Assembly (NCBI GenBank): GCA_029261035.1
Contig: JAJDCD010000025.1
Span: 248,001 to 312,000 of the forward strand
From: Candidatus Omnitrophota bacterium
Lineage (GTDB): Bacteria; Omnitrophota; Omnitrophia; Omnitrophales; JACROU01
Direction of reading: 5' to 3'
Length of the DNA: 64,000 nucleotides
Shown here piece by piece: positions 4,315 to 61,999 of this stretch; positions within the stretch are counted from its first letter, which is position 1; the number at the start of each line of letters is the position of its first letter. A program made the translations under genes and the position numbers. The notes beneath the pieces were generated by a model, which had not been told where the DNA came from, made no database searches, and saw nothing but the letters and a program-made list of their open reading frames with translations.

Positions 4315-4318
4315 AATT

Positions 4319-32019: not shown

Positions 32020-32059
32020 TAGTGTCCTTTGTTTATAGCTTTTAGTAAAAGCTTTTTCT

Positions 32060-32183: not shown

Positions 32184-32203
32184 CAACTATTGTATTCAGA
32201 CGC

Positions 32204-33475
32204 TTACCTAACAACATCTCTTATGGAACTAAACCAACTAGAAAGAACTCTTTTCAATGTTCCACCATTATAAGGAGGGTATGCTTGAAGCATTGTTGAT
32301 TGAGGATAAAAATATTCTAAAATTTTGTTGTACGAATAAGATTCATCTGCCATCGTTTTAGCGCCCCATTGAGAAAGGCCGACACCATGCCCCCATCCCC
32401 TACCTTTAATCTGAAGTCCTTCCCTCTGATTATCAAAAGTTATAAGAGTGCTGAGTAATTTTTTATATCCAATAATTCTTCTAAATTCAGAGGCTTTCAT
32501 AACCTTATTTCCTTGGCTGTGAATAATATTCACTTTTCTTAAACGTCCCGAACGGTCTCTATCCACAGCTTCAACACGAATAATATCTCCAACAGGCGTT
32601 TTGTCTTTTTCTAACAACTCTTTAATTTCCTTATAACTTACTTTTCGCTCCCAAGAGGCATACTTCGAACTTTCAACAAACTTACTTTTCACTCCTCGAA
32701 GAGAAGGGTGAGAGCGAATATTCCAAACCTCAGCAGCATCTGTGGTAGACCCTCCAGAAGAGGAGTGAAAGAATGTAGGAAAAACCCCTCCGCTATACGT
32801 TAAAATCTCTCCCTGTGTTAAATCGACAGCAAGAGATGTCCGGTTATGTTCGTTCGTCTTCCCCCCATAAACTTGACTAGACACATCACTTTTCAAAAAG
32901 AAGGGTGCTTTAGGAGCTCTTAACCCTTGAAACAAAGCAAAAGTACGTGCCGCTACCGCCTGAGCCTTTAACGCCTCCATATTCCAACGAGGACTTACTT
33001 CTCGAGGTAAAACTCCTTTTAAATATTCATCCAAAGGAAGCTCATTAATCACACTTAATTTTTCTTCATTATTAATTAAAATTCGAACTCGAAATCGATA
33101 TTCTCTCTTATTAACTATAATCACTTTGTTTTCTGGAATTAAGCGGATATCTTTTGTTTTCACTGTCTGTCCATCAATAACAAGTCCTGACGAAGAGACT
33201 CCTACTGTCATCTTACGTTTAGGGTAACCTTGTCGAATCAACTTTCTTGAGTCGGAATCCAAAGCAACAAAATGACCCTCTGAACTAAACGTTACAGGCT
33301 CATCCGATCTTAGAATAAGCACTTTCGTCAAAGGGGCTTGGTTTAGCCCTACCGGCAACAGAATAGAACTGGGTGCTGGGGGAACTATTTTCTTCGTGTC
33401 AGCATACCCAGATGAAGAAAAAGAAGTCACAATAAATATAAATAAAACTAATTTAACAATCGCTTTTTGAATCAT
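32204..33475 (-). CDS. SpoIID/LytB domain protein
   Basis: 423 residues with a signal peptide (LVLFIFIVTSFSSSGYA). The SpoIID domain (about 130-400) shows LPLDEYLKGVLPREVSP, WNMEALKAQAVAARTFAL, FHSSSGGSTTDAAEVW and the C-terminal GRGWGHGVGLSQWGAKTMA. SpoIID is a lytic transglycosylase acting on stripped peptidoglycan; outside spore formers the family acts in cell-wall remodelling. Its ATG overlaps the HAD gene stop by one base, so the two are coupled. Confidence 0.92.
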   Translation of the reverse strand: MIQKAIVKLVLFIFIVTSFSSSGYADTKKIVPPAPSSILLPVGLNQAPLTKVLILRSDEPVTFSSEGHFVALDSDSRKLIRQGYPKRKMTVGVSSSGLVIDGQTVKTKDIRLIPENKVIIVNKREYRFRVRILINNEEKLSVINELPLDEYLKGVLPREVSPRWNMEALKAQAVAARTFALFQGLRAPKAPFFLKSDVSSQVYGGKTNEHNRTSLAVDLTQGEILTYSGGVFPTFFHSSSGGSTTDAAEVWNIRSHPSLRGVKSKFVESSKYASWERKVSYKEIKELLEKDKTPVGDIIRVEAVDRDRSGRLRKVNIIHSQGNKVMKASEFRRIIGYKKLLSTLITFDNQREGLQIKGRGWGHGVGLSQWGAKTMADESYSYNKILEYFYPQSTMLQAYPPYNGGTLKRVLSSWFSSIRDVVR

Positions 33476-37801: not shown

Positions 37802-38644
37802 TTACGCAGCCTGCTTGATTTGCTGTGTCGCCTTAAATTCCTCTAGCAAACTATCCAGAACAGCAAACACACCTTCCCCAACAAGCCAAAAACCGTCTTT
37901 AGACTCTAACCCAACTTCAGTAAAGAGACGTTCTTGAGCCACAGGGTCGGCACTTACAGAAGCCAAAGCACGCAACAATGAAAATAAAATTTGAGGATGA
38001 ATCTGATGCTCAGACAATCTCTCTTTATCCAATTTAAATCGAAGTAAGTTCTTAGCTTTATCCGGCATAGACACCGTATCTTCCAAAGCTTCTAAAGAAA
38101 ATCTCTGTCCAAACCCACGAAACATCAAATTAAGTTCACTGGCATAAGGCGTGTTTGTTCTTAAACTTTTCACATGAATATTCTTTCCACTAGCAACTTC
38201 TCTTATCTCAGGAATCGCGTCATACTCCGTACCCACATCATCAATCGCAACAATACGATCCTGAGGTCGCAAACTTTCAACCAAAGCTTGAATACCGTTT
38301 ACAATCATAGATTCTGTAACAACAACCACAACTGGAGATTCGGTTAACTGCGAATCAAGAATTCTTTTAAGTACAAATTGATTAAAGCCGCCTTGAGTTA
38401 CTCCCAAGTCAACAAGAGGCCGCGTAGAACTTTGAGCATAAAGAGGTTTGATTCCCAAAACAACATTTAAAAGGTCTCCCATCAATACTCCATCATCAGG
38501 AGCAAATACACGATCCGTAACATCCGTACCTACAGATAAAATGCTTAATACATTCCTATACCCCTGTCCATTACGAACTAAACCATTCTGAAATTGAATC
38601 AAAACTGAATAATCGATACCACGGGTAAGCTCTCCACCCAAACT
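37802..38644 (-). other. Giant protein: C-terminal segment after the last SLG motif
   Basis: Residues 7786-8065. Mixed alpha/beta, with a Rossmann-like stretch (SPVVVVVTESMIVNGIQAL, then DRIVAIDDVG) and a helical tail (QIHPQILFSLLRALASVS). No family recognised. As the last segment it could be a terminal recognition or release domain, but nothing shows this directly. Confidence 0.5.
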
Positions 38645-41600
38645 ACTTGCTTCAGAACGTTTTTGGTTCATAGCTTCCAAAGCCTCTTGCATGCGACGCT
38701 CTCTTCTAAAACGCTTTACTCTATCTTTCATTTTTCTGATTCGAGCAGAAATATTAGGCTGGGACACTCCAAGTTCTTGAGCAATATCACCAACCCTATT
38801 TCCTTCTATAATCATCTCCGCAACTTGACGGTGACTTGAGGCGAATCGCTCAAACCAACCTTCCTTCTTAACTTCCTTGAAATAACGAATTTCTTTCTTT
38901 CGTTTCAGCTCTTTCCTTCCTGATATATCCTCGCCCTTCCTCAAACGTTGGATTTTTTCTTCTGCTCTGCTTAATGATTGAGATATGCTCTGTATATTTG
39001 CATTAAATTGACGCGCTATTTCTGGAACCTTTTTACCCGACATAAATAACTGAACCACTTCTTTTTCTCTTATGCTAAGTTGTTTAAACAACCCTTCTCT
39101 TTTAGCTTTTCTAAAAATTTTCATTCTTGTCTTGTCTTGTAAAGCTTTGGTTTCAGCTTTTATTCTTGCTTGCTCCTCTTTACTTGTCCATTTGCCCTCT
39201 CTCATTAAAGATATATTTGACTTAGCACGATCTAACCTTCTCAGAACAGTAGTTGGAGTTACATTCGTTTCAATAGCAATAATAGCCACTCTGTATCCTA
39301 GCAAAATCCTCCAAGCAACTTCCTTTTCTTCTTTCGGCAACTTTTCATACAAACCTTCCTCTTGAGCTTTCCTCAAAAACTCTCGGTCCACTTCATAATC
39401 TCTCACCCCCCCCAAACTGCTGGCTTTTATCTGTGAACCTGTATTATTTGAGTCTGGAAACGGAATAATGATCCCTTCTTTTTCTTTTGCTGCTTGTCTC
39501 TGTTGTCCAATCTTTTCTCTAGCCTTTTTTCTGTGCAAATAAATGGCTGCTTGCGTCACCTCAAGCCATTCCGCTATCTCAACATATTTTTTCCCGGACA
39601 AAATACCTTCTATGACTCTCTTCTCTTGAAATGACAAGACTTCTAACAACCCCTCTTCCTTTGCTTTGCTAAAAAATTGGATCTCCTCTTTATAGTTCGC
39701 TTTTTTTCTTTTTCTAATTTCATTGCCACTATCAGGATGATTTGCCTTTTTATTAGCAGTTCTAAATGCAAGGTATACGGTCGATTCATTGAGTGAAGTT
39801 TCTTTGATTACTTCTGGAATCGTGTTACCTAAAAGGACTCCTTCAATAACCCGCTTTTCTGTCTCAGAAAGCCTGTCCCAATAAACTCCTTTCGCAGCCT
39901 GCCATAACACTCTATATGCTTCATAGTCTATTTCCCACCGAGAAGAAACTTCTTTTCCTGCTATTAAATCATCTATTTTCTGCTTGGTTCTTTTTATGGT
40001 GTCACGAACAGTAGCAGAATCCACTTTAAGCTGTTTGGCAATGGCGCTCGGCTGTCTTCCAGTTAAAAATAATTTCAAAATCTGCTTCTCTCGTTTTGTC
40101 AGTTTATCGAGAAACCCTTGCTCTTTTACCTCCAGAAAAAAGCTTTTAAGTTTTTGATAATCCACATATTCCACATTATTAACAGGTAAACCTTGTTTAA
40201 GCTTGTTCAACTTTTTCTTAGCTTTATCGAGGTTGTTGGAAACAGCACCTACAGAAATTCCTACCTCAACAGCAATTTCTTCCTTTCGTTTACCGGAAAC
40301 AAGCAAATGAATCACTTTCTGCTCTCGAGTTGAGAGTTGTTCCAGGTAACCTGATTTTTTCTCTTTTTCCCAATACTCCTTTTCTTTATCGTAGTCAAAA
40401 TACGTTATTGTTCGTACAGTATTACCGCTTCTCATTTTTTTAAACTTTGCTTTAGCTCGACTCATTGCAACAGAAACATCCGAAGGAGTAATATCCATTT
40501 CTTCAGCTATTTGTTTATTTCGTTTTCCTGAAAGAATCAACGCAATGACCTGCTTTTGTTGTTGTGACAGTGCATCAAACAATCCTTCCTCTTGAGCTAA
40601 CGAAAAATACTCTCTCAGCTTTTTATATTTTGTTTCTATAACAGTTGTTGGTTTAGCCGAATCACTATTCTTATTAATTTCTTGTTCGTGTTTTATTGCA
40701 TCATCCGATTGCTCGTTACCCAAACTTTTACCCTCAATGTCTTCACTAGAAACTTTCTTAGGCTTGTAAGTATAGCCACCCGAAGATTTGTTGCCTTTTC
40801 TCTCATCTTCCAAAAGCCCCGCAATTATCCGAGCTGCATCCAGATCTTTCATTTCAAGCTGAAATCTCAATCTTTGATCTATCTTATCTAATAAATAACT
40901 AACTTGGAGCACGCTTTGTACCGTTTCTCCTTTTCCTATACGACTCATTATGTCAGTAAGCCTATAAAAGCAAGATGATTGTTGTTCTTTTTCCACATCC
41001 CTATCCGGCAATTCATCTCCAAGCTCAACCTTCTTCTTTCTATTCTCCGGATTAATCATTCCAGTCCCTGTGGCATAGCTCATCAGTTCATCAAAAGCAT
41101 CATCAGAAGCGCCGGACTTTTTTCTTTTTTGAATTTCTTCCCAGATTCTTTGAGAGTCCATTCTATACTTATTAACAACATTATCAATTTGATTCATAAA
41201 ACTTAGCGTTGTTTTTCCATCAAAAAGATCTTCCGCTAAAATTAAGGACTCATCCATTGCCGCAACTAAACGGACTGCATCCTCAAAATTTAGACTTTTC
41301 ATAATTAGAATATACATTTTGGGAATAACTGCATTACGCACCTCTGTTAATAAAATTTCAGCAAGAAAATACCAGCCTCTTTCTTTAACCAGTTGGCTCA
41401 CATACTCCATAAGAGTCTCATGAGAATTAGAAGCAAGAGAACCGAAATAATTAATATGCGCCATTAAAAACTTCTCATTAATTGCTTTATTTACCCCTTT
41501 ATAAGCGTTTAAAAAATCACGCTCACTATAATTTGCTAAATACTCTGACTTTAATTCTGGATTTAAATGAAAGAAAGCATAGATCACTTCTTTTTGAAAT

Positions 41601-44600
41601 GGTTCAGAATGCATAGAAAAACGTCCAAAAGAACTAACGAGATTCTTCATCATCCGAAAAGACGCTTCAGCCCAAACATGACTTAATATATCGTAAACTT
41701 TATCGATGGACTCTTCAGAAACACTGCTAATTTCGTGAATAATGTGAATAAAGCTCCATAAGCGCAACCACATTCTATCTGGATAATTATCGAGCATATG
41801 GAAAGTTAGAATTTCTTTACTAGCTAGATAAGCAACCGTTGGATTAGCAACTAAATCAATACGCAGTTTTATTATCTTCTTTCCGTCTTCTAAAACCAGA
41901 GCAACAGGAGCTGTCTGATTGGAAACAATTTGCCAAACCACTTCTCCAAAAACAAGATTCTTCGATTTATCCCTACCCCCACTAATAACCGAAATAACGT
42001 CCTTTACAAGCACCTCTAAACTCCCACTAAATTCATCAAATTCAAAAACCCCGTTGGATTCCAAATATTTTTCAAGCCCATTTTGATTTATCTGAAAAGC
42101 ATCTTCTTCCACAGGCAGTTCAGCTACAATATTAACTGGATCTTCCTCAACGATATCTACAACAGGAAAGCTAGATTGAAAAGTCAGTCTACTTACTCGA
42201 ATCACTTCGATAAAGTTAATCAATTGATTAATATCTTCACTCGAATTAAGAATATTTATTTTCTTTAATTCCTTTCTCGGAGCCGTAATTACAATATGAC
42301 CTCCCTCTAAAACCAGAGGTCTTTTTTTGCCTACTTTAATGTCAACAGTAATAGGGTTTGAAAGAGAAACCCCTTTTTTAGATAGAATTTCTCTAATTTT
42401 ATGTTTAATATTTTCTCGCACTTCTGTTGCTTTTAACTTTGAAGAATTGAGCAGTGCTATATTTAATAAATCATTCCCAACATCATCATCGCTAAGGTCC
42501 AGCTCCTCTATTAATGTCTCAGACTCTGCATTTCTTGAAACCGCTTTAAATACAGGCTCTTTTCCGCGTTTTAACAAATCTTGGTGAACACCAAAATATT
42601 CTGCCACCACACTTATTTCTTTGTCAGACAACTTTTCTTTTCCTTGCTCAATTTTCTTAACTGATTTTTTAACGAATAAAGTATTTGTTTTTAAAAGATC
42701 TGCTCGATTCATTCCCTTCGACAATCTCAACAGCCAAATCCTGTTCCCAATTGATTTTTTACCTTCACCACCATCAAGCAAAGCTTCCTCTAATGCTTTC
42801 CCTACAATAACTTCAGTGACTGTCACTCCCAAATACTCAGCGATAGCTTGAACTAAACTGACCGGCACGCTCTGAGGGTCACTATTCATCTTTTCTAACT
42901 TACTTGCAGTTACAATTTTTATATCCGAAACAAGATCTTCTAACGTTTTACCCTTTTTTAATAATACTTTAGCCAGAGGAAAAGAAGTTTTTCCTATCTT
43001 TGCTACTCTACTACTAGTTGAAGCACTCTTTACATCTAGATTTTCATTTTTCACCTTTTCTAATAGTGTGATGTCCCCTTTATTATCAAACTGAGCTTTC
43101 CATTGTCTTTGAGCCCATTCAGGCAATTCCTTATAGCCTATGCCATCAAAGCTCAATTCGAAACCATCTTTTTTAGACTCTAAAACTCCATGTCGAGCTA
43201 ATAGCAAGAGTAAGGTGAAAACATCTTTACTCTTAATCCCTCCAAATTGGTTTCTTAAATGATTAATAATAAATGAGACTCCTTTTGAGCGTAAAACAGA
43301 ACCCCATCTTAAAAATAAGCTTTTACGACTAGAAAGATTATAAATCACTTGGTAACGACCCAATAAATTAGCTTTATCTGCCCCTATTCTTTCTCCAAAA
43401 ATATATGTATGAACCTCATCTCCGACAATTGGAAAGCTTGTAACGAGCCTGCCTTCATCTTCTGCTGTTGGTTCTATAATACTTCTGAGAATAGAAACGC
43501 CTTTATTATCAGAAGAAGGTTCCAAGAAATGCAGATACCAGTTAAGCTCCCAGCTAGGAAGAATCTTTTTATAATTAACTCCTCTTTGAATGCCTTCAAG
43601 AACTATTTCTCTAACTTGGATCTGATCTAATTCTCTTGGAAAAAAAGAAGTCATTGCTCCATCCAAATTAGATTCTGGACTTAACATATGGCGATCAAAA
43701 ACATGGGCTAATCCTGACTCGTAAAAAACATCCAGACTACTATCATAATTAACAATAGAAGCTGCCCCCGAACTCAAAGAACCTCTGCCTTTTACCTTTT
43801 CCTCAGAATCTAAATTAAAAACACGTATTGAAATATCATATTGGTGAATTAATTCTTTGGCATGGTCAAGCATCTGTTTAGCCTTAGCCAAATCCCCTTT
43901 TTGAACTTCAACGCGAGCAGCAACGCCCAAAGATCGTATTTGATACCAACGGAGCGTTCTGCTATTTTTATGTTTTTTTAGATGCAATTTTGCTTTCTTA
44001 TACGCTTCTTGATATTTTCCTAAAGATAACAAAAATTCAAGCTCATAAACTCTAACCCAAGAATCATCCGGATACATTTCCTTTAACATCTCTGCCTTAC
44101 TTAATCCTAGTTCATATTTACCTAAGGCAACAAGAACTCGTAACTCTAACATTAAAGTCCAATAATTCCGCCGATCAACAGACAAAGCTTTTTCCACAAC
44201 TTCCAACGCTCTATTTGCATCCCCCTGATTTAAATAAGCTTTTGCCAGCATATTATGAGCAAAGCTATTGGAAGGATTCATCCTCACCGAATGTTCGGAA
44301 ATTTGAATAGCACGATCATTCATTCCTAGCTGTATGAGTAGCTTTGCCGCAGAGTTTCGAGCAAAAATATCGTGTTTTCCTACATCTAAGATTTCTTCCA
44401 CAACTCTCAACGCCTCTATCTTTAACTCCAACTTAATTAAAATATTTGCCTTTAAAATCATTTTTCTAAAGTCATCAGGCTTAATACGATAAGCTTTCTC
44501 TACTATATACAACGCTTCTTGAAGCCTATCTTTATCACCCGTTCGTGCAGATCTGAAAATGGCCCGCGCCAATATTTCCAAAGCAAAATGGTAATCTGGA

Positions 44601-56600: not shown

Positions 56601-59600
56601 TTTGCTGGAACACTTTTTTCTGTTGGGGGCTTCGTGGAAAATCTAATGTGCAAAACAGGATTTTCATCTATATGCTTTGGCTCTAATTTTATGCTAAAAG
56701 TAGCTTTAGTAGTTCTAGGCATAAGCTCAGCAGGTAACTCTAAAAAAGCTGAAAAACTATTGGTCGAAAAATACATATGAGGAAAGACTGCATACTCCTG
56801 TTCTTTTCCTCTCTCATCCTTTCCTAAACTTGCAGCTTGGATATTTGTATTATCTGGTAAAAACTTAGACGGAGCATTGAGTGAAATTAAGTCAGGAAGT
56901 GTTTTTGGATCTAGGATTCTTCTTTCCAGCAATGCATCCATTTGTGTTCTAGTTTCTTGTTCTGTGGGACGCAAAATAGTGGATGGATTAAAAATTTCTC
57001 TCAATGTCTCTTGATGTCGGTTAAAACCTGCACGATCAACACCGGGGAGAATATTAGCAGAACGAACACTTGCTTTAACGGCAGCTTCAAGATTTCTTCT
57101 AAATACAGATAAAATATGTCGGCGAACATAGTTTCTGACATCTTCAGAAGACGGGGTTGCTCCTTCAGCTTGGAGTTTTTCTATAATTGTAGCTTCTCCT
57201 AGCCTAGAGACCAGTCGTGTTGTTAATGTATCCAGTTCTGTAGCAAAAGCACCTTCTGTCGTATTTACCGAATTCATTAATCGAACAATCATCTCCGACT
57301 CAGCTGGATTCCATTGTAAGGATAAAACTATTCTGTAATAAAGAAGAGCTTGTCTAACCCACTCTTTGGGTTCTTCAGATGAAACAATTGCAAGGTACAA
57401 GCCATAGGCTGCTAAAAGACGATCAGAGTAAGTGGTAATAAAACTATCATGATCCATATTCGGAATAATGCTTGTCTTAAGCTGCTCCCATGTAACATCA
57501 TCCGCTTCTATTCCGCGACGCTCTAAATAACCATTCAAAGTATATTTAAAACCTGTTAAAGGAGTCCTATTTGGATCTCCATTAAATCGTAAAAGCCAAA
57601 CTAATGGAAAAATGAGAGGTCGTTGTGCATGAGTCATCATGTTTGGAATCTTACGTTCATCTATGTTTGCATTCTGCCTAAGAAGTCTCTCCAACTCTGG
57701 CATCTGGACCTCATCAGCCATTCGAGTAAGGTCAGCCATAGACAAATCAGGGTTCTGTTGCAACGCTTTCTTCCACCGCAATAAATGCCCATCATAATCT
57801 GAGTCAGTATAAGCACTCAGATAGATCGTAGACAACCAGCTTTGAAATACTGCCGCCCTCATATCTATCAGTTGTAATTCTAAACGTTCTCTTTGGGTCA
57901 ATCCACGGTTAAAAGAAGACTCATCATTTCTAATAATCCAATGCGTTCCTTCGTGAAAAACTGCCGGTAATCCAAGTACAAACAAATGTGAATCTTCCGT
58001 AAAGGTCTTCTCCTCACTCATCACAATCGTCCATGTCGAGCCCCCGTTCTCAGTTCTCGTCTGGCCATTAACTCCCTCAGGAAGTCCGGTCACAAACGTC
58101 GTCACAGAAAGAAGCCTTTGAACTAATCTGTCTTTGGCCGCTGCACCAATTCCCGGTCTAGCGATATCTACCGCCATTCGATATCCATACTCCAAAGCCT
58201 CTCTTCTAAAAGCAGATTTGCCTTTAGGCGACAGCCTAAGCTGATCTCTATCAGCAGATCCCATCAGCCGTACTAATTCACGCACCGAAGAAGTAATGTT
58301 AGGGCTAAACAAATGGTTCTCCAACTTTACTCTTCTTAACTCGACAACAATAGGATACCAAGCACCAAAATCTCTTCTCTCAATTTGCTCAACAGTTAAA
58401 GGAACTGGAACTTCAGGTGTTATCTCCTCATCTGAAGTTAATGTTGGAACACTTTCATTTTCAGTTTTTAAAAAGATCATTTTCCAGCCAAACATCGCGA
58501 TCAACAATAACGATGTAGCAACGCCACCAAACAAGAGGAATTTCCTGCTCTTAGCTCTTTTTTGCTTTATCTGTTCTATCTTCTGCAATGACTGCTGGTC
58601 CATTTGTTCTTTGATGGGTAACAATAGCTGATCAACAATCTCCTCTTGAGCATCTTTAAACGCAGAAACATCAACGGAATCTAATGTAAAAATAGATTTT
58701 TTGTCATAAATAATTTTTATTTCCAAACCATGTGGATGAAGATGGGTCGCGATGATAGGGCCTTGAACCTCTCTATAAATTTCAGAGTCTCGAAAATGAT
58801 TTAATAGCTTCTGAGCAATTGTTTTTGAAACAGGTCCAACAGTTGATATTTCAAGAGCCTTTCTTTCTCCCAAACTAGCTCCAACAGATTCTTCCCCTAG
58901 GTCTACTTCTTGCTTTAAAATAGCTAACTCCAAGGTTTTAATAATTTCCTTATCCGTTTCGGATATAACTTGGATGGGATACAGCGACTGATCTTTTCCA
59001 GGAAAAAATGTATCTAATAGGCGTTTGGATCTTTTTATAAAACTGTCAGGAACTATCAAAAAAAGCTTTCCCTTATTATCAAGGCCAATATTTACAATTG
59101 ATTTTAAATAAGTTACGACAGAAAGTTTTGGAGGGTAACCTTCTCTTTCAATAAAAGATTTTGCTTTTTTAGTTGCAACAGCAAATGCAAATTCCCACTG
59201 CCTCACTCTAAACTCTTTTGAAGAACCTCGCACAAAAACGCTGCCCGTATTTCTATTCAAATGTATTGAGTGAGGGCCATACAAAACCTGGACAGAGCCA
59301 TCTTCTAGCCTTTTAACATCAACAGCAATTTGCCTCTCTAAAAATAGTTCTATCAGATCTTCCGTTAAAGCAGACACCTTATTCCAATTTTCTTGTTTAG
59401 ACTTAGATCTCTTCCCATTACCTTTCTCGTCCTCAAAAATTATCGTATCAATTGTGTCAATTGCATCGTGTGCGATTTCAAGAACCTCCTCTTCAGAAAT
59501 TTCTGCTTGTAGCTCGTCTCTAAAGTATGCAGTAATTTGAGAAACACTTAAACCTTTCAGAATTTTTTCTACAACCGTTTTAGAATCAGAGTCTAGAATT

Positions 59601-61999
59601 GAAAGAAGATAATGCTTCTCTCTACCTAATACTTTGAAGAGCATATTAATCTTACGAATAGCTCTATCTTCGAAGGGGTATATTGCAGCAAATTCTAAGA
59701 CCTCTTGCAAACGATCTAAGTCATTAAACTCAATACTAAAACCTTTGTAACCTAAAAAGCCAACCTCAATCTTAATTTCTTCTTTTTGAGCAACCTTACC
59801 CACAGTCATATTAGAGGTTATAAACGATTTCATATCCTTTAACTGAGTAATGAGTCTCCTCATATTGCTAGCTAAAACAGACTTCCCTCTTACCACAATT
59901 CGGATTTTTTCGTCTTCACGCTCCACCCTAACTCTATCTAGAGAGTCAAAGTCTTCAGATTTTTCTGAAACAATTGCTTTTAATAAAAGTTCTAAATTCT
60001 TGTAGTCCTGATTCCCCACGCGATAATCAATTTTTTCTCCTACTCTCATAACAGTCAATTCTAAACCACCAATTTGAGACAGCATTTTTGCTTGAATAAT
60101 TTTATCTACAAACAAAGGAATCTTCTTCAAAGACAAAGCAAGTTCTCGATTCCCTTCTGATTCGTACGTTTCTCCGTCAACAGAAATAATATATTTTAAA
60201 CCATCCCTAACAACGCTAATTTCATGCCCTACACTTCCTAAACTAGCACCAGAAACTTTCTTATTCTTCTTATCTTTAAATCCACCAGGAAGTTTAGTAG
60301 GCAATTTTGATTTTTTAACTGCAGGAGGAAGTTTAGATTTTGGTCTTTCAAAAGGTTTCTTTCCTAAACTATTAGCAACCGAAGCTACTAATTGTTCTCT
60401 TTGAGAAGCTGACACCCCTAATTGAATAGGGTTAACAACTGACAAATGCTGCTTCATCACATTGGATACGTCAACCGAACCCAACATAGACTCAACATAA
60501 GTCCTGTGAGAATCATTTTCAAGATAAGGTGCAATCGTAGAATAGCTCCACTGATGCTGTTTATAAAAATCCGTCAAAGCTCCAGCATGAAAACCCCCTG
60601 TAATCACGAGCGCTTTTGATTTTTTCTTTTCTTTAAGAGTTTTCTGAATTGTTTGGGTAAAAGCGCCTTCTCGAGCTTCTGCTATTTGATAAAATTGGAG
60701 AGCATTTTGAAATACATCATTTATCTGAGATTCTTCGTTGTTCTTTTCCTCTTCACCCAGAATGACAGTGGTAGGAGAGTTCTTCACTTCTGCCCAGTCT
60801 GTTCGAGTGAGTTGGAGTAAGAGTAGTTTCCTTAATAGTTTAAATGCTCCGACATTTCGAATCGCTTCTTTAGCACTTTCTGTTACTGCTAATTTGTTAG
60901 AGATGAGCTCAATCCATTGCGCGAGTTCTGCGAACAGCTCTTTGCTTTGGAGTTCATATTGGAAAATAATGTTTTTGGTATATTCTGAAAAGTGAGGATA
61001 ATCTTTGAAATCAAAGCCTTTTGGTTCTAATTCTTGGTGGAGTTTTTCAAGTAAATGGCGTGGGTTGGTTTCGACATAATTTTCAAAGAAGATCTTTTGT
61101 ATTAGATCCTTCGTTTCACTCAGAATGACAAATTTGGATAGGATAAGCTCCCACCCTTGTTGAGCTTGTGCAATAGTATTTTTTTCTGACTCTGTTTTTA
61201 ATTTGAGTAATCGAAGTAAGTTAGGAAATTGTCTTTGTTCTATTGGGTTTCTCAAATCTCTTTCAAGATGTCTTTGACTCATATGATCCAAATCTGAAAG
61301 AACCTTCATTAAAGAAAAGTTCTTCTCGCCCATATCCAAAGATATTCTTAACAAAGACAAAAGATCTCCTGTATCTGTACTCTTAGAAACAAGCAACGTT
61401 AATTCTTTATCTAAACTCTGTCTCTGTAACTCTAGCCACTCTTTAACTTCATCTTCATGTATTAATACTTGCTTCAGAGCTTCTACATTTTTTAGATAGA
61501 GTTCTGGATTTTCAATTCCTACAAACTCCACCTTCTTATTTCCATGTTTGGATAAAAATAGGTCCGACTGGGTCGCTTCTCCCATCTGGGAAAGCTTATC
61601 TAATATTTTTTTATTTAATTCTGGATTTTCCGTGAAATTAAGCAAATCAGCATCTAAACCTTGCTCCGTGGCCGCCTCAACAAAAATGAGATCGATGTCG
61701 TGCTGCTCGACAAGATATTCCATAATAGAAGCTAAATTTTTCTGAGCTTCATAGTTCGCATGAGCATCTTGAAGATGAATGATTAAGGGATGTTCCTGAG
61801 TCGGTTTTGAAGAAAGAAAGTTTTTTTCTTGAACAGAACCTAATTCTGAAGGAATAGACAATTGTAAATCATAAAAAGGAAGACGGTCTACCTGCTTAGG
61901 TAGAGACGCTAAGGGAATTTGCCCATAACTAAGAGTATTCCATGAAAAGAGTAAACAAGTAATTAAAGCTATAAATCTAAGATATTTTTTAAAATACAT
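37802..61999 (-). CDS. Giant multidomain protein (about 8065 residues) divided by 23 [A/G]-x-S-L-G motifs; putative polyprotein
   Basis: One unbroken frame of about 24.2 kb. I place the start at the ATG at 61999, which opens a signal peptide (KKYLRFIALITCLLFSWNTL, then SYGQ); a TTG at 62035 gives 12 extra residues. A GGGAGG lies 15 bases ahead. The motif [A/G]-x-S-L-G occurs 23 times, at Ser residues 544, 586, 1042, 1724, 1900, 2318, 2889, 2931, 3421, 3445, 3521, 4043, 4253, 4316, 4362, 4684, 4889, 5069, 5618, 5746, 7092, 7528 and 7786. Segments between motifs are 24 to 1346 residues long and mostly unrelated; they are listed as separate entries. No named family covers the whole. Mixed content (signal peptide, membrane anchors, internal lipobox, phosphatase, kinase-like, GHKL-like and HTH units) suggests a polyprotein cut after export. 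No frameshift is seen. Function unknown. Confidence 0.88.
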   Translation of the reverse strand: MYFKKYLRFIALITCLLFSWNTLSYGQIPLASLPKQVDRLPFYDLQLSIPSELGSVQEKNFLSSKPTQEHPLIIHLQDAHANYEAQKNLASIMEYLVEQHDIDLIFVEAATEQGLDADLLNFTENPELNKKILDKLSQMGEATQSDLFLSKHGNKKVEFVGIENPELYLKNVEALKQVLIHEDEVKEWLELQRQSLDKELTLLVSKSTDTGDLLSLLRISLDMGEKNFSLMKVLSDLDHMSQRHLERDLRNPIEQRQFPNLLRLLKLKTESEKNTIAQAQQGWELILSKFVILSETKDLIQKIFFENYVETNPRHLLEKLHQELEPKGFDFKDYPHFSEYTKNIIFQYELQSKELFAELAQWIELISNKLAVTESAKEAIRNVGAFKLLRKLLLLQLTRTDWAEVKNSPTTVILGEEEKNNEESQINDVFQNALQFYQIAEAREGAFTQTIQKTLKEKKKSKALVITGGFHAGALTDFYKQHQWSYSTIAPYLENDSHRTYVESMLGSVDVSNVMKQHLSVVNPIQLGVSASQREQLVASVANSLGKKPFERPKSKLPPAVKKSKLPTKLPGGFKDKKNKKVSGASLGSVGHEISVVRDGLKYIISVDGETYESEGNRELALSLKKIPLFVDKIIQAKMLSQIGGLELTVMRVGEKIDYRVGNQDYKNLELLLKAIVSEKSEDFDSLDRVRVEREDEKIRIVVRGKSVLASNMRRLITQLKDMKSFITSNMTVGKVAQKEEIKIEVGFLGYKGFSIEFNDLDRLQEVLEFAAIYPFEDRAIRKINMLFKVLGREKHYLLSILDSDSKTVVEKILKGLSVSQITAYFRDELQAEISEEEVLEIAHDAIDTIDTIIFEDEKGNGKRSKSKQENWNKVSALTEDLIELFLERQIAVDVKRLEDGSVQVLYGPHSIHLNRNTGSVFVRGSSKEFRVRQWEFAFAVATKKAKSFIEREGYPPKLSVVTYLKSIVNIGLDNKGKLFLIVPDSFIKRSKRLLDTFFPGKDQSLYPIQVISETDKEIIKTLELAILKQEVDLGEESVGASLGERKALEISTVGPVSKTIAQKLLNHFRDSEIYREVQGPIIATHLHPHGLEIKIIYDKKSIFTLDSVDVSAFKDAQEEIVDQLLLPIKEQMDQQSLQKIEQIKQKRAKSRKFLLFGGVATSLLLIAMFGWKMIFLKTENESVPTLTSDEEITPEVPVPLTVEQIERRDFGAWYPIVVELRRVKLENHLFSPNITSSVRELVRLMGSADRDQLRLSPKGKSAFRREALEYGYRMAVDIARPGIGAAAKDRLVQRLLSVTTFVTGLPEGVNGQTRTENGGSTWTIVMSEEKTFTEDSHLFVLGLPAVFHEGTHWIIRNDESSFNRGLTQRERLELQLIDMRAAVFQSWLSTIYLSAYTDSDYDGHLLRWKKALQQNPDLSMADLTRMADEVQMPELERLLRQNANIDERKIPNMMTHAQRPLIFPLVWLLRFNGDPNRTPLTGFKYTLNGYLERRGIEADDVTWEQLKTSIIPNMDHDSFITTYSDRLLAAYGLYLAIVSSEEPKEWVRQALLYYRIVLSLQWNPAESEMIVRLMNSVNTTEGAFATELDTLTTRLVSRLGEATIIEKLQAEGATPSSEDVRNYVRRHILSVFRRNLEAAVKASVRSANILPGVDRAGFNRHQETLREIFNPSTILRPTEQETRTQMDALLERRILDPKTLPDLISLNAPSKFLPDNTNIQAASLGKDERGKEQEYAVFPHMYFSTNSFSAFLELPAELMPRTTKATFSIKLEPKHIDENPVLHIRFSTKPPTEKSVPANIVIQNEYGRELVGYAVPERENLYTPVEVSFPNTNGKTQVLELDLTPYIIPGTQDHAFNRDRLVHQISLFNHLGGVTTIHDIRVISKVTAAQKSPKARGASLGKKKGPEKWLDFKPSDTDDIYHSWGVIPELKGRSRLLMDYPFLMTDFDLWYKRPHYLYGTSVGILKAQVTLGRMGGYPAFSDDIVKADPDNPMVFSSKGRIFFMLQRTKDNLFQAYEMVIGYADRTAESGRAETAYEFYKQLWEKFQIKLPLPPLEDFKRRAVLRLPVEDVQPFLRPSFDPLTGQGERFSSKRGIPIKYLRNAEIILEEEIPVKQGVFKMRIGLNRQTSSFQEHGMMLHPSEITEADAKRYRALFRLADVAVYFKDKWKPFAEEVTFQPESFRLKAFVYLSSLISFVRTSVKLGAFLFAAQWVLFSHPYSLASFSIYYFSLATFLWLLPNLLYPIRRLLSPMSDPSVPYPDAEWKQFRQELDTMLAAEAARRNLKLEDMFPQLNKNGKGEQNEGQETDDSENTEASSLGESKELFTLGFAEVQTRLAQIDFLSGKGLPKHEKVQKKALRSKIAKKIISRRDNKTQSLITTQDIQTIILEMNDGSLSEEESQKLLQELKNLFRINQERKIKENVEKGSKERAPPFRLLIKPAIVLGVLALVFTTVLFLFPSSKPIKEKKSTASPARIRDDITFLGVESPLARKDLVKRNFQYRNFEPIEVPSDFPLTLIPVTHTGQDNARRLKDILEGIEGQLSRDPNNGVLPMVLWAEGDIDFDGLVEINGLEALRQMSKIQQKQASFNLLIEDIIKDSQTNQALNNALLAYRNQIRGRQYNFFNDQSPRAASVAQKVERLRSEFGDSSFSSHLMEWAIQNKAYLLPESRGFDSWVISWDVNKLTELAHWSLFNNDIEGAYFYSDLAFRYSVEMIYLRDRELWQQVIQMNERLWAQAVQAGYQSPNYRIVVPIGASHTSSFQLQSNQIIRPNPGRSEREITIQKELEGRLTETERKRYIEKSMLRYFIVTSVGNPDSYQAIKDIYQLFTQRMEETPMTYEQLLRLLGDRLSGEKKRNRGEITIRPILLDLLLEKELITAEEKRVLARSLGKQPFERPKSKVPPRVKKSKLPTKFPGGFEEKKKKKTSGASLGKGKFSKHVNAIRTIFERNSKNSFQLLESSDLSKNEKEVVEFALLDPSLKIRQIEEILGIAQPSVTIYRRRALKKLLEAEEILKQGGELKPDDSKQKLRALPQIEELFKRNPNSKERLLNVSGLSENEKKVVEFVLLYPSLKTKRIGEILGIAQPSVSIYRRRALEKLLKAEEILKQGGELKPDDSKQEKREKIRRSKKRRVLPQIEELFKRNPNSKEQLLNGSGLSENERRIVEFALSDPDLTIEKIANKIGVAYSSASIFRSRALEKLLEAEEILKQGGELKPDDSKQEKREKIRRSKKTRVVPQIEELFKRNPNSKEQLLNGSGLSENEKKVVKFVLLEPSLKIKRIGEILGIAQTSVSIYRRRALEKLLKAEEILVGSEVNESQLEQLEGIQLVSDESNEPKFEIDVTVSDFEEVNRDLLFDYMDSWHVIVLKKFLKGEAVVKIANDFGISPVLTLKLLKEAKEFVVKLSEGEVPPDEASAQASSLGDEKLSKDLTVKLAGSDRVDADSLGVEGESSEDEDESFVTELFNSVVPSPRLSDADIAQAKARIMAGVASNAGESNEASEAEQDAVLKSDDSDEVEASSLGKSPIRTLPVNKNFDLYFEPEDLVESLSYLDLRRLFRDAREAMLSYSRTARPWTRMDEAMPGLDFESQPGAIVHITDGENVLPIGDLQGHYYNLVEMLMHPRVLSGLKDGTLHLVFLGDLIHPSGNLMLKKNAQTQSLATLILFMQLKTAFPGNIHTILGNHELSHVEGSNFSARKKDPKGKEHYQNKEFENSLEARYGTKQKRQLAHHLDSLFRSLPLMIRIRVGKEYLMALHANPPVDVMFPKEAENPIKLAQILVSSEDLAQDELPLYDLVSLEELANVLYWGGYRVNENPYLHTLVNKREFDSEKQQQFLSTMGLAGILTGHTIPIPRYARDRGFKIFSSAGPTIQLMRMGYFENDLILDASSDLDQPEKHIATLLIGMNQELPRKSEDETIDWPKLLDSLESPAVQLINQDSVTRTMKLRNLAGKPLGKSKEGKIKSTNKLRELLILLRGGLSRRAIASHPAMSHSAFQIRRYESKAKFVPADYLRELRDVIGFGLEWNEDNKWALEPSSLVEGSSLGDRYARRHSNIEKSGLKRGDEIYYKELTYFSVPGKKEENALRDLVREMVRSIYQSVGKLHMSETELLRRLKVENEFLIGKINAVMFFSLENSWDAFVERKQKEPGFKDDLHIVYRAYVEDGNLIIELIDNGNGEVHFNKSDSKLKDDQFLGGMGMDEDVIQRIASDVSVRRRPAFIDLFNRLETKGAIRQIRIPLETVLSQSGKYSASSLGKDSLKEIESTQITDRELPLTLLGAVSLGFVLAVSGYLAYEAMRAPPYIPTPQGIPSTQGMSLGEDPLDKDLDDLTDEEFELEIIGTLGYWFGGKRNKEDGDGVEADSLGSQEIETSKWAAFFSFSVLALAFYGIVFSQVNVEVVHYVIGLISFIAFPVSVLGLIHSLGLPFLSQKIKLPPRSLRQSNPEIYKERVVDFFRYPMLNEIDYLKRVLKLIPEDGVFSEEQKASLLKHGFLEKVLHYYLMRVHSLNDEASRRVLKSAVKTSGQKNIKQILSSKRNEDLMYFIYSDGTIRSYSIAQYKFTPLNKPFKYSDYSIILEKEEGEGLVVVSSLSSMQYIESRYNFIIQTINLDPDVPEESRYKVYKAFRHSLFMGDSVTLVNFSILFSQKNDDRKDLGYIQIDSGIYSVDFDKKRTEEFAPQSVEAKSLGGAEEQLESIEAEVLLKRKQMATLDTFGLLLEIVSEQPKALVVIDVLSLIHLIFALNPEIATEENKELVARYIADYISRNYPSDIVFSEFIATKIEEIKSKGLFYFVADPILLFVSGVNLTLILNSSFSMETIPIFLISVLLPIMIVVGTLVKLKRLFNSITMNFSALGNLMKINAKSLEILSTEYSRDSGEGESVGEMLEGDSLGRRLGFRSGFLLLTLLAGPTALAGCNLIKTTQQTGIKSIEALKGMEVIEEVNGPKYTFKDNQLTLFPNEGYFMATPSQPIDLDQFRYLNLWIEAESEAWFWLGLLNREVKPLVRENKLGAITVEAEEGLQKITIDLHSKMKLWDRLFGTNIVKAIGFVNPISEKGPIVIKRMSFSRAESLGKPLLSSETKYKIKPYGPHQLTIPLDVLKDNDFIRETIQNLNLPVGLTPLKWIKFERVKTNLQKNIYKVQLVSEEDVESSFYIYETRGNKTDLNKYVNNYQRAADYMASTSGFDLFPRVGAVQEGKAGFLYQSVEYVEPVTHDPSNIKLIPHIIESYLRLLDHSWAIGDFRWDQFSVTRDQNGNRIAKMVDLDVLEYFPNNLKALEHHFFEFISYIMKRPNAEELFDQLISLMRNKGYLSRQVLDGVVRRFESGNFSRTYSSDPNLIKMLRSHLDGWLRDDQIKRSKELVQRIKELRIDPISFNQKTKSLPWSREHIQLLKLGVNPKVVLEGIRFEYGADRANMGRSSQQRHSWWQRNHNLTKNKSRKGLEIMVREGLAVMPYQYRSYFVGTGAGHSDNIWYIIHQSMHDVFWNTLTESQRNEFKAILIEMKKKYIEQFPYKVFDSDYDKVDLGLGNTIYEDDEHIIQNLENVSEAFARIVGAYLGDQLGQNNYYYNRDSPSFYNLKPFYEFLERELELVSSPEHLEQLLSAVDSSFKNETEGLSAQSLGEESSYLREKFGHLVTMELISLQDWILGGLTGELLKDPLKNSRLLQRLKQIAEKIFITGPVHNSDAEEDELVRDFRMIIDITSEFFEGQKPSVVDIMQIFIAQRSGVVFFAEDLGTPRPKEYVEGNSLGVEEDRRVGLTRGNVPVYELQQDFLRVRQAQYLIKERRFEEAEQNLRNLLYSSPDYHFALEILARAIFRSARTGDKDRLQEALYIVEKAYRIKPDDFRKMILKANILIKLELKIEALRVVEEILDVGKHDIFARNSAAKLLIQLGMNDRAIQISEHSVRMNPSNSFAHNMLAKAYLNQGDANRALEVVEKALSVDRRNYWTLMLELRVLVALGKYELGLSKAEMLKEMYPDDSWVRVYELEFLLSLGKYQEAYKKAKLHLKKHKNSRTLRWYQIRSLGVAARVEVQKGDLAKAKQMLDHAKELIHQYDISIRVFNLDSEEKVKGRGSLSSGAASIVNYDSSLDVFYESGLAHVFDRHMLSPESNLDGAMTSFFPRELDQIQVREIVLEGIQRGVNYKKILPSWELNWYLHFLEPSSDNKGVSILRSIIEPTAEDEGRLVTSFPIVGDEVHTYIFGERIGADKANLLGRYQVIYNLSSRKSLFLRWGSVLRSKGVSFIINHLRNQFGGIKSKDVFTLLLLLARHGVLESKKDGFELSFDGIGYKELPEWAQRQWKAQFDNKGDITLLEKVKNENLDVKSASTSSRVAKIGKTSFPLAKVLLKKGKTLEDLVSDIKIVTASKLEKMNSDPQSVPVSLVQAIAEYLGVTVTEVIVGKALEEALLDGGEGKKSIGNRIWLLRLSKGMNRADLLKTNTLFVKKSVKKIEQGKEKLSDKEISVVAEYFGVHQDLLKRGKEPVFKAVSRNAESETLIEELDLSDDDVGNDLLNIALLNSSKLKATEVRENIKHKIREILSKKGVSLSNPITVDIKVGKKRPLVLEGGHIVITAPRKELKKINILNSSEDINQLINFIEVIRVSRLTFQSSFPVVDIVEEDPVNIVAELPVEEDAFQINQNGLEKYLESNGVFEFDEFSGSLEVLVKDVISVISGGRDKSKNLVFGEVVWQIVSNQTAPVALVLEDGKKIIKLRIDLVANPTVAYLASKEILTFHMLDNYPDRMWLRLWSFIHIIHEISSVSEESIDKVYDILSHVWAEASFRMMKNLVSSFGRFSMHSEPFQKEVIYAFFHLNPELKSEYLANYSERDFLNAYKGVNKAINEKFLMAHINYFGSLASNSHETLMEYVSQLVKERGWYFLAEILLTEVRNAVIPKMYILIMKSLNFEDAVRLVAAMDESLILAEDLFDGKTTLSFMNQIDNVVNKYRMDSQRIWEEIQKRKKSGASDDAFDELMSYATGTGMINPENRKKKVELGDELPDRDVEKEQQSSCFYRLTDIMSRIGKGETVQSVLQVSYLLDKIDQRLRFQLEMKDLDAARIIAGLLEDERKGNKSSGGYTYKPKKVSSEDIEGKSLGNEQSDDAIKHEQEINKNSDSAKPTTVIETKYKKLREYFSLAQEEGLFDALSQQQKQVIALILSGKRNKQIAEEMDITPSDVSVAMSRAKAKFKKMRSGNTVRTITYFDYDKEKEYWEKEKKSGYLEQLSTREQKVIHLLVSGKRKEEIAVEVGISVGAVSNNLDKAKKKLNKLKQGLPVNNVEYVDYQKLKSFFLEVKEQGFLDKLTKREKQILKLFLTGRQPSAIAKQLKVDSATVRDTIKRTKQKIDDLIAGKEVSSRWEIDYEAYRVLWQAAKGVYWDRLSETEKRVIEGVLLGNTIPEVIKETSLNESTVYLAFRTANKKANHPDSGNEIRKRKKANYKEEIQFFSKAKEEGLLEVLSFQEKRVIEGILSGKKYVEIAEWLEVTQAAIYLHRKKAREKIGQQRQAAKEKEGIIIPFPDSNNTGSQIKASSLGGVRDYEVDREFLRKAQEEGLYEKLPKEEKEVAWRILLGYRVAIIAIETNVTPTTVLRRLDRAKSNISLMREGKWTSKEEQARIKAETKALQDKTRMKIFRKAKREGLFKQLSIREKEVVQLFMSGKKVPEIARQFNANIQSISQSLSRAEEKIQRLRKGEDISGRKELKRKKEIRYFKEVKKEGWFERFASSHRQVAEMIIEGNRVGDIAQELGVSQPNISARIRKMKDRVKRFRRERRMQEALEAMNQKRSEASSLGGELTRGIDYSVLIQFQNGLVRNGQGYRNVLSILSVGTDVTDRVFAPDDGVLMGDLLNVVLGIKPLYAQSSTRPLVDLGVTQGGFNQFVLKRILDSQLTESPVVVVVTESMIVNGIQALVESLRPQDRIVAIDDVGTEYDAIPEIREVASGKNIHVKSLRTNTPYASELNLMFRGFGQRFSLEALEDTVSMPDKAKNLLRFKLDKERLSEHQIHPQILFSLLRALASVSADPVAQERLFTEVGLESKDGFWLVGEGVFAVLDSLLEEFKATQQIKQAA
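38645..40726 (-). other. Giant protein: second HTH array, eight LuxR/sigma-4-like units
   Basis: Residues about 7092-7786, interrupted by an SLG motif at 7528. Eight units of about 50 residues repeat the pattern L-S-x-x-E-x-x-V-I ... SGK-x-x-x-I-A ... (for example LSTREQKVIHLLVSGKRKEE and LTKREKQILKLFLTGRQPSA). The order LS..E..V / I A / V S . A K is that of LuxR/GerE and sigma-70 region 4 DNA-binding domains. Units are joined by Lys/Arg-rich linkers. DNA binding is expected from the fold; the target is unknown. Confidence 0.75.
40727..44764 (-). other. Giant protein: TPR array, possible nuclease-like domain, XRE-type HTH and helical region
   Basis: Residues 5746-7091, the longest segment. 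5760-6057 is a TPR array of about seven units (AKAYLNQGDANRALEVVEKA). Residues 6099-6104 are HVFDRH, followed by SFFPRE and a helix, which loosely resembles BECR/EndoU-type RNase toxins. About 6410-6470 is XRE-like (GNRIWLLRLSKGMNRADLLK). The rest (about 6550-7080) is mostly helical and unassigned. Only the TPR and XRE calls are reasonably firm. Confidence 0.6.
44765..45148 (-). other. Giant protein: short helical segment
   Basis: Residues 5618-5745, 128 residues, mostly helical (SYLREKFGHLVTMELISLQD). It is bounded by QSLG and NSLG motifs. No family recognised. Confidence 0.4.
45149..46795 (-). other. Giant protein: kinase-like segment
   Basis: Residues 5069-5617. The stretch LLDHSWAIGDFRWDQFSV near 5236 followed by AKMVDLDVLEYF resembles the catalytic loop and metal-binding Asp of protein-kinase/aminoglycoside-kinase folds (normally H-x-D-x4-N and DFG/DxD). 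The upstream FLYQSVEYVEP fits the hinge. The family reading is uncertain and a key Asn is not obvious. The later part is helical and contains long polar loops. Confidence 0.45.
46796..47335 (-). other. Giant protein: lipoprotein-like segment with internal lipobox
   Basis: Residues 4889-5068. The SLG motif is followed at once by two arginines, a hydrophobic run (SGFLLLTLLAGPTALAG) and Cys4915, giving L-A-G-C, a standard type II signal peptide and lipobox 26 residues after the Ser. The mature part looks like a beta-sandwich of carbohydrate-binding type (YFMATPSQPIDLDQFRYLNL ... IVIKRMSFSR). As a free protein this would be a normal lipoprotein; it only works as such if the chain is cut at or near the SLG site, or if translation starts again nearby. 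Confidence 0.7.
47336..48916 (-). other. Giant protein: two membrane-anchored segments
   Basis: Residues 4362-4888, split by an SLG motif at 4684. The first begins with two helices (WAAFFSFSVLALAFYGIVF and VVHYVIGLISFIAFPVSVLG) and carries a mixed domain (VVVSSLSSMQYIESRYN). The second has a helical start, a pair of helices in the middle (FYFVADPILLFVSGVNLTLI and IPIFLISVLLPIMIVVGTLV) and a polar tail. No enzyme motif recognised. The topology would alternate across the membrane if the chain stayed whole. Confidence 0.5.
48917..49243 (-). other. Giant protein: short membrane and acidic segments
   Basis: Residues 4253-4361, cut by an SLG at 4316. The first piece has one membrane helix (LPLTLLGAVSLGFVLAVSGY, with a chance SLG inside the helix). 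The second is a 46-residue acidic piece (EDPLDKDLDDLTDEEFELE). They look like linkers or regulatory tails. Confidence 0.45.
49244..49873 (-). other. Giant protein: GHKL-ATPase-like segment
   Basis: Residues 4043-4252. Three motifs of histidine-kinase/Hsp90-type ATPases occur in order: N-box ENSWDAF (4134-4140), DNGNG G1-box (4173-4177) and GGMGM G2-like (4195-4199). No DHp helix with a phospho-His is seen, so a full sensor kinase is unlikely; an anti-sigma-type or degenerate HATPase is possible. It is flanked by SSLG motifs on both sides. Confidence 0.6.
49874..51439 (-). other. Giant protein: calcineurin-type metallophosphatase segment with HTH tail
   Basis: Residues 3521-4042. Phosphoesterase motifs in order: IGDLQGHYYN near 3610 (GD-x-x-GH), FLGDLIHPSGN near 3645 (GD), ILGNHELSHVEG near 3680 (GNHE), ALHANPPVDVM (H) and TGHTIPIP (GH). 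All metal ligands expected of PPP/MPE phosphatases appear present. The C-terminal 100 residues have a helix-turn-helix-like piece (LLRGGLSRRAIASHPAMS). Substrate unknown; Ser/Thr or Ap4A-type hydrolase are options. Confidence 0.68.
51440..51739 (-). other. Giant protein: two short SLG-bounded acidic peptides
   Basis: SLG sites at residues 3421, 3445 and 3521 cut out pieces of 24 and 76 residues, both rich in Asp, Glu and Ser (VEGESSEDEDESFVTEL). They have no fold of their own and could be released peptides or spacers. They are the closest-spaced motifs in the gene. Confidence 0.55.
51740..53209 (-). other. Giant protein: first HTH array with four near-identical repeats plus one
   Basis: Residues 2931-3420. 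Four tandem copies of a ~100-residue unit (period 306 bases at 52221, 52527 and 52833; the fourth is shorter) each hold an HTH (LSENEKKVVEFVLL, then IGEILGIAQPSVSIYRRRAL) and a linker EEILKQGGELKPDD. A fifth, diverged HTH (IANDFGISPVLTLKLLKEAK) follows. Near-identity of DNA sequence between copies points to recent duplication. Confidence 0.8.
53201..53335 (-). repeat. Giant protein: duplicated 45-residue basic linker, copy 2
   Basis: Residues 2889-2933. SLGKQPFERPKSK starts it and TSGASLG ends it; it is rich in Lys and Pro. 37 of 45 positions match copy 1 at 60236-60370. It is bounded by SLG motifs at both ends and so would be a free peptide if both were cut. Confidence 0.9.
53336..55048 (-). 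other. Giant protein: segment with one membrane helix
   Basis: Residues 2318-2888. A helix near 2435 (AIVLGVLALVFTTVLFLFP) follows about 110 polar residues; behind it is a large alpha/beta domain (FPLTLIPVTHTGQDNARRL ... IVVPIGASHTSS) with alternating helices. The VIPIGASHTS loop suggests a hydrolase-like or TraB-like module related to the N-terminal one, but I could not assign it. Confidence 0.45.
55049..56302 (-). other. Giant protein: segment with paired membrane helices
   Basis: Residues 1900-2317. The first 250 residues are a mixed domain (YLYGTSVGILKAQVTLGRMG), then two hydrophobic stretches (VKLGAFLFAAQWVLFSHPYS and FSIYYFSLATFLWLLPNLLY) and a polar tail ending TEASSLG. No enzyme motif recognised. 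Confidence 0.4.
56303..56830 (-). other. Giant protein: beta-sandwich segment
   Basis: Residues 1724-1899. Predominantly beta with alternating hydrophobics (MYFSTNSFSAFLELPAEL, ATFSIKLEP, VLELDLTPYIIPG). It resembles small carbohydrate-binding or jelly-roll modules. It ends in KARGASLG. Confidence 0.4.
56831..58876 (-). other. Giant protein: membrane-anchored segment with HExxH
   Basis: Residues 1042-1723. A helix near 1175-1195 (FLLFGGVATSLLLIAMFGW) follows a basic stretch. Residues 1349-1353 are HEGTH within LPAVFHEGTHWII, the zinc-protease motif HExxH flanked by hydrophobics as in metallopeptidases. The third ligand (a downstream Glu or His) was not identified. If active it is a candidate processing enzyme of the polyprotein. 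Confidence 0.55.
58877..60235 (-). other. Giant protein: unassigned segment
   Basis: Residues 589-1041. Alternating beta and helix pieces (RVEREDEKIRIVVRGKS, TVVEKILKGLSVSQITAYF) with a basic loop (GKRSKSKQENWN). It begins after GASLG and ends before GASLG. No family recognised. Confidence 0.4.
60236..60370 (-). repeat. Giant protein: duplicated 45-residue basic linker, copy 1
   Basis: Residues 544-588, between SLG motifs at 544 and 586. Opens SLGKKPFERPKSK, closes VSGASLG; Lys/Pro-rich, predicted disordered. Same spacing (42 residues Ser to Ser) as copy 2. Confidence 0.9.
60729..60770. repeat. Family A-like repeat in frame inside the giant gene (diverged)
   Basis: GATTCTTCG ... CACCCAGAATGACAG keeps the two ends of a family A unit with a changed middle. 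It encodes part of the Glu/Asn-rich stretch after TTVILGEEEKNN. Confidence 0.5.
61105..61131. repeat. Family A repeat in frame inside the giant gene
   Basis: GATCCTTCGTTTCACTCAGA and the following ATGACAA match the family A unit found in intergenic gaps (for example 37725-37747). Translated on the minus strand it gives FVILSETKDLIQK, close to the VILSVAKNL peptide coded by another copy at 32150. Confidence 0.8.

Follow-up and report, generated by a model that had tools for sequence, protein, structure and literature searches.

What is a bacterial protein of 8,065 residues for, when one short motif, [AG]-x-S-L-G, recurs along it at the borders of seemingly unrelated modules, and does such a chain stay whole? 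The question is posed by a gene in the 64,000-nucleotide stretch of an Omnitrophota contig analysed here (the window). Giant Omnitrophota ORFs, among them one of 39,678 aa in Velamenicoccus archaeovorus (Seymour et al. 2023, PMC10066038), have few annotated domains and their function is open; a surface coat has been proposed for the V. archaeovorus giant (PMC10066038), and the post-transcriptional integrity of such ORFs has been called unclear (PMC12057145). By its phylum and its size, the window ORF belongs to this phenomenon, whereas a delimiter, a common leader and tail, or processing are not described in the accessible parts of the V. archaeovorus report, the main text of which does not contain the word polyprotein. 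Nor did we find a description of a delimiter in the literature on bacterial polyproteins, including those of Omnitrophota, in a search with preprints and many subscription journals outside its scope. As far as this literature goes, delimiter-joined giants are new, although giant Omnitrophota ORFs were already known.

The gene is one open frame on the reverse strand (window 37802-62035), encoding 8,065 aa from an ATG at 61999, with a TTG at 62035 as a possible alternative start. Its product has very few cysteines and, by eye, a signal-peptide-like N-terminus (aa 1-27; 61919-61999), and paralogous giants have similar hydrophobic N-termini. It contains 27 SLG tripeptides against 4.1 expected from composition, and 24 of them have the form [AG]xSLG, for which 2,000 shuffles give an expectation of 0.48 and a maximum of 4; the remaining three (48739, 44026 and 43933) lack Ala or Gly at position -2. 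The original prediction had counted 23 SLG, every one with Ala or Gly two residues before the serine, against about four expected by chance; all of its 23 serine positions are correct and the chance estimate agrees with ours, and the totals are now 27 and 24. The additional match, AVSLG (Ser 49159; 49151-49165), lies within a hydrophobic, membrane-like segment, is probably a chance occurrence and is excluded from the delimiter count. In the 31 other window ORFs that we checked, with 11,915 aa in all, there are 11 SLG, none of them [AG]xSLG. Across the genome, a scan with the back-translated pattern, GSNNNNAGYTTRGGN, gives 205 matches, against 26 for its reversed control.

All features of the gene are given here on the reverse strand, from the N-terminus onwards. 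Behind an N-terminal domain of about 460 residues, referred to below as the leader (aa 45-508; 60476-61867), the motif scan places delimiter 1, ANSLG (aa 542-546; 60362-60376), then GASLG (delimiter 2; 60236-60250), GASLG (3; 58868-58882), AASLG (4; 56822-56836), GASLG (5; 56294-56308), ASSLG (6; 55040-55054), ARSLG (7; 53327-53341) and GASLG (8; 53201-53215). A repeat module resembling the helix-turn-helix of sigma-70 region 4 and LuxR, identified by Pfam, occupies 51740-53209, and is followed by ASSLG (9; 51731-51745), ADSLG (10; 51659-51673) and ASSLG (11; 51431-51445), the last marking the start of a metallophosphatase module (aa 3521-4042) with a calcineurin-like phosphoesterase domain (PF00149; 50786-51190). 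GSSLG (12; 49865-49879) opens a module (aa 4043-4245; 49265-49873) homologous to the first post-leader module of another giant, L026. Further on come ASSLG (13; 49235-49249), GMSLG (14; 49046-49060), ADSLG (15; 48908-48922), AKSLG (16; 47942-47956), GDSLG (17; 47327-47341), AESLG (18; 46787-46801), AQSLG (19; 45140-45154) and GNSLG (20; 44756-44770), which precedes a TPR module supported by Pfam and an AF2 model (aa 5746-6050; 43850-44764). After GKSLG (21; 40718-40732) there are two more modules of the sigma-70-region-4/LuxR-like helix-turn-helix type by Pfam (38651-40717), with ASSLG (22; 39410-39424) between them. ASSLG (23; 38636-38650) stands before a C-terminal domain common to other giants (aa 7815-8065; 37805-38557), which closes with an amphipathic tail ending in -QAA (37805-37879).

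Two similar 42-residue linkers rich in Lys and Pro (60236-60376 and 53201-53341) have a delimiter at both ends of each; a cut at these flanking delimiters would free a small basic peptide twice.

A search with the first 573 residues of the protein finds 57 places in its 2.70-Mb genome, most of them inside open frames of 1,300 to 16,199 aa, and on this sequence evidence the genome encodes dozens of giant, predicted exported ORFs, of which the window ORF is one. The set of giants compared here comprises the window ORF and 21 further giant frames from twenty genome stretches; genome-wide counts rest on pattern scans together with extracted stretches, and giants longer than 20 kb were read in part. 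Together the 22 giants amount to 79,270 aa, or 8.8% of the genome, and contain 149 copies of [AG]xSLG against 4.4 expected. One-residue variants occur about as often as chance predicts, or less often (SIG, 2 seen and 2.4 expected; TLG, 1 and 2.7; SLA, 2 and 5.0; SLS, 2 and 5.5; likewise SVG), the largest count being that of SLD, with 8 against 4.2. Position -4, which lies outside the motif definition, is Val, Ser, Ala, Thr or Ile in 126 of the 149 copies (p = 4e-42), and position -3 is Glu in 47, so that the consensus in family f1 reads [VSATI]-x-[AG]-x-S-L-G; counted from the serine, its constrained small residues are those at -4 and -2. The cargo strung along these chains spans helix-turn-helix, TPR, WD40, LRR, macro, phosphatase and PPDK-like domains by Pfam, and unrelated Pfam domains and paralogue-defined modules lie along the chains, giving several distinct folded units per precursor.

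Where do the motifs fall relative to these units? An all-against-all BLASTP of the giants yields 584 paralogous HSPs. Only 54 of these cross a motif, whereas 200 rotations of the motif positions give a mean of 314 and a minimum of 231; conversely, 163 HSP ends lie within 12 aa of a motif, against 58 by rotation (maximum 133). As HSPs are mutually dependent, the rotation test as a whole serves as a guide and gives no exact probability. At 33 of 57 crossings the partner carries a motif at the equivalent place. All 19 Pfam stretches compared with motif positions lie between motifs, the metallophosphatase module starts at a motif both in the window ORF and in the giant L025, and the module at aa 4043-4245 does so both in the window ORF and in L026. 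Some module joints carry no motif. The original prediction of segments that look like different proteins, with a fixed delimiter at their edges, is thus borne out at the level of sequence by HSP crossing, Pfam domains and shared modules alike.

The motif sites also appear to be flexible. Mean disorder propensity, profiled for the SLG motifs, rises from -24 to +11 around them, with no rise around other SLG. Two AF2 models sample three motifs of the window ORF. In the first (aa 28-640; 35 aligned sequences; mean pLDDT 79.7) the leader domain is confident, the stretch at aa 510-594, which holds the motif at 586 (delimiter 2, pLDDT about 30) and borders that at 544, is mostly of low pLDDT, and a beta-rich module follows. 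In the second, a single-sequence model of aa 5590-6070, the motif at 5746 (delimiter 20) lies in coil with a pLDDT of about 23, and two control SLG at 5992 and 6023 that are not part of a motif lie inside TPR helices with a pLDDT of about 90; this model offers weaker support, because its first 178 residues, including the motif, are all of low confidence and it was built with no alignment. The original prediction had expected motifs in disordered joints, and the three sampled motifs do lie in or beside low-pLDDT joints. Disorder propensity and these two models, which cover few motifs, place the short, strict motif in flexible stretches that join the modules.

Is the motif a feature of the protein or of the DNA that encodes it? 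Of 113 matches to the back-translated pattern in the giants, 112 keep to the reading frame. In f1 motifs the glycine codon and the choices between AGT and AGC and between TTA and TTG are near background, whereas serine is coded by AGY in 84% of copies against a background of 32%, and leucine by TTR in 87% against 61%, a bias that fits the descent of copied motifs in which the residue is under selection. In family f6, the serine of the same motif is coded by TCN or by AGY, indicating that the residue is kept and the DNA is not. For RSExR, the delimiter of other families described below, the first arginine and the serine are biased towards CGY-TCN, wobble included, and other RS pairs show no such bias; together with the codon-family bias in f1, this suggests that recent DNA copying contributes. 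A DNA-level element or recombination site was considered for the f1 motif and rejected, given the in-frame matches, the mostly free wobble positions and the other serine codons of f6. Reading frame and codon usage thus indicate that the constraint on the motif acts on the protein.

The giants share their two ends as well. His80, Glu108 and G468-G469-F470-H471 of the leader are invariant in 19 paralogues, and its DAH, E and GG-x-H motifs are invariant in 35 homologues. The six best structural matches of its AF2 model are to EreC, BcR135, HopBA1 and ChaN (Z 9.2-7.6; the next match scores 5.2); Foldseek E-values are weak (best 0.02), the window protein scores 13.5 bits against the ChaN family PF04187, below the Pfam gathering cut-off of 27.7, and a profile of the domain gave no meaningful match among PDB sequences. 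The conserved His and Glu, with the late GxxH, correspond to what we take to be the key residues of the Tiki superfamily. From homology, the model and its structural matches, the leader is predicted to have an EreA/ChaN-like (Tiki superfamily) fold. It shares this fold and the invariant His and Glu with the EreA/EreC erythromycin esterases, HopBA1 and ChaN, and differs from them in its length of about 460 aa, its large helical part, its sub-threshold Pfam score and its fusion to giant cargo. A weak match that suggested a second EreA/ChaN-like copy at aa 2490-2800 was dropped, BLAST recovering a shared linker only.

In giants that have a leader, the first motif comes after it, usually 50-250 aa beyond GGxH; exceptions are L020, in which the first match falls within the leader, and giants with few motifs. 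Two giants of L027 (2,786 and at least 2,067 aa) have a signal peptide and seven motifs each but no leader. At the other end, all 41 complete giants of the order end in Ala (-AA in 29, -SA in 8), against 4 of 31 control ORFs; three frames were set aside, two of them because they contain runs of N and one as antisense. This end forms an amphipathic tail with Leu, Ile or Val at -15, regardless of the delimiter, and the Ala tail is possibly an export or protease signal; a conserved C-terminal domain was detected in 13 of 51 complete frames.

How far does this architecture extend? The leader is present in 143 of 285 sampled Omnitrophota genomes. The [AG]xSLG delimiter is found in families f1, f4 and f6 (in f4 in one of the two giants read from G014, and in f6 as GxSLG in G007), RSExR in f3, f5, f7 and f8, and LSD[ST]R in one genus (G020, of f8). 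In giants of f5, f3 and f8, which have no xSLG, RSE[LVMA]R takes this role: it is in frame, its first copy lies at aa 570-825 in most such giants, and only 2 of 60 paralogous HSPs cross it, against 34 expected. Genome-wide, RSExR greatly exceeds its reversed control in G021 (328 against 31), G027 (293 against 26), G030 (252 against 20), G008 of f7 (96 against 12), G018 (100 against 18) and G004 (59 against 8), and shows no excess in G000 (2 against 9), G014 (7 against 11) or G007 (5 against 14); conversely, strong enrichment of the AGY-TTR form of SLG is confined to G000, with G001 and G002 weakly enriched. As G001 has a weak RSExR excess (21 against 7), the two delimiters are mutually exclusive where signals are strong. 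The expectation that the motif would recur in other Omnitrophota giants thus holds for f1, f4 and f6 and fails for f3, f5, f7 and f8, in which RSExR replaces it. These comparisons show the architecture recurring across the order, with a delimiter that differs from family to family.

Outside the order, the giants sampled from seven families carry the leader with neither delimiter enriched, and as none is detectable there the leader does not need the delimiter. Inside the order, almost no copy of either occurs in the giants read from G003, G025 and G005; L115 (G003) has a single [AG]xSLG and L085 (G025) a single RSExR, with either another delimiter or none. Relatives of the leader domain also occur outside Omnitrophota, in Elusimicrobia/Endomicrobia records (L172 and L175).

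The reading that we consider best, with a probability of roughly 60%, is that the giants are exported polyproteins, putatively cut at the delimiter. Each would be made as one Sec-exported chain consisting of a signal peptide, usually an EreA/ChaN-like leader, a string of cargo and an Ala-ending tail; [VSATI]-x-[AG]-x-S-L-G would serve, within the flexible joints, as the linear sequence recognised by a sequence-specific endoprotease outside the cytoplasm, which would free the leader, the cargo modules and the tail. We infer cutting at the site, export before cutting, such an enzyme as the reader and an action of the products on other cells. A specific protease would impose strict residues next to a flexible position, sites placed to release leader and tail, and a change of site throughout a family, and the retention of the architecture where the site differs (RSExR, LSD[ST]R) suggests that reader and site changed together. 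The cargo folds, from helix-turn-helix, TPR, WD40 and LRR to macro, phosphatase and PPDK-like domains, suggest effectors or enzymes rather than a coat. It is conceivable, at slightly less than even odds, that much of the order's exported host- or prey-directed repertoire is made as dozens of giant polyproteins served by one dedicated protease; its specificity would have switched among [AG]xSLG, RSExR and LSD[ST]R from family to family, the sites across the genome following in step, as a genome-wide code of protease and site in a cellular organism.

The delimiter might instead be a site at which, for example, a carrier or export chaperone docks or a glycan or anchor is attached, on a chain that stays intact as a surface coat. 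A strict linear motif repeated in flexible stretches would suit a binding site too, serine is the one residue common to SLG, RSExR and LSD[ST]R, and a coat is what has been published as a proposal for V. archaeovorus (PMC10066038). Enzymatic and DNA-binding folds, however, make little sense in a coat, the motif marks module borders, and its first copy usually stands behind the leader, where leader release needs it; we regard this alternative as unlikely. Less probable again is that the delimiter is a scar or joint of domain shuffling between giant genes, with no function in the protein. Modules have clearly been exchanged, the motif sits at their borders, and the Ser/Leu codon-family bias of f1 and the CGY-TCN bias of RSExR speak for shared DNA ancestry, but third positions in f1 are mostly at background, f6 uses either serine codon family, the patterns seldom match out of frame or on the opposite strand, and a functionless scar would not have stayed strict against one-residue variants.

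We give very little weight to the delimiter being a peptide that acts in translation, by pausing the ribosome or separating chains, and not a protease site. It is short, strict and placed at joints, as such a peptide would be, but the later chains would lack a signal peptide and not be exported, and the unrelated SLG and RSExR sequences would both need the property; to our knowledge, the motif has no resemblance to separating peptides of the 2A type.

If the delimiter is a protease site, which enzyme reads it? The original prediction had noted that [AG]-x-S matches the -3/-1 rule of signal peptidase I for a cut after the serine, a proposal that the sequences do not support; instead, the small residues of f1 lie at -4 and -2 of the serine, which would correspond to this rule (AXA) if the cut were after Ala/Gly, with -4 loose in f6. 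On average the motifs are not preceded by a hydrophobic segment: none was found before the window motifs, where mean hydropathy from -24 to -5 ranges from -0.05 to -1.7. Signal peptidase I (S26) is mostly single copy, and is an unlikely cutter on these grounds and because RSExR does not fit it. Among the protease families covered (S26, S41, Trypsin_2, C11, S8 and C14, with the gingipain family C25 outside the set), no enzyme tracks the delimiter. With its hydrolase-shared fold and conserved His and Glu, the leader may be the protease, but only as a candidate; giants without a leader also carry the motif. L180 encodes a stand-alone exported leader-domain protein with no motif and no cargo (2716-4209, forward strand), adjoined by a gene for an exported HtrA-like protease of trypsin fold (4230-5045, reverse strand); an HtrA-like protease is likewise a candidate reader.

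Viral polyproteins and neuropeptide precursors yield many products per chain through a strict short site and a specific protease, both varying between lineages. The giants differ from these in occurring in a cellular bacterium, as dozens of exported chains per genome, and in that their cutting is putative. The gingipain and HagA precursors of Porphyromonas are large, exported and composed of few related domains, into which a specific protease cuts them at general Arg/Lys sites; the Omnitrophota giants, known so far from sequence, have unrelated modules and a strict site, and clostripain-type C11 is absent. The delimiter predicts product boundaries for hundreds of modules and shows structure prediction where to cut; it provides a search image for the enzyme, and it makes chain integrity directly testable. 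If the sites are cut, bacteria have an economy of polyproteins much as viruses do, and its recognition code has changed wholesale from one family to another.

Elsewhere in the window, an ORF on the reverse strand (31345-32217) begins VILSVAKNL...RCAQDDK, which looks like translation through a dispersed repeat that is also found in other genomes.
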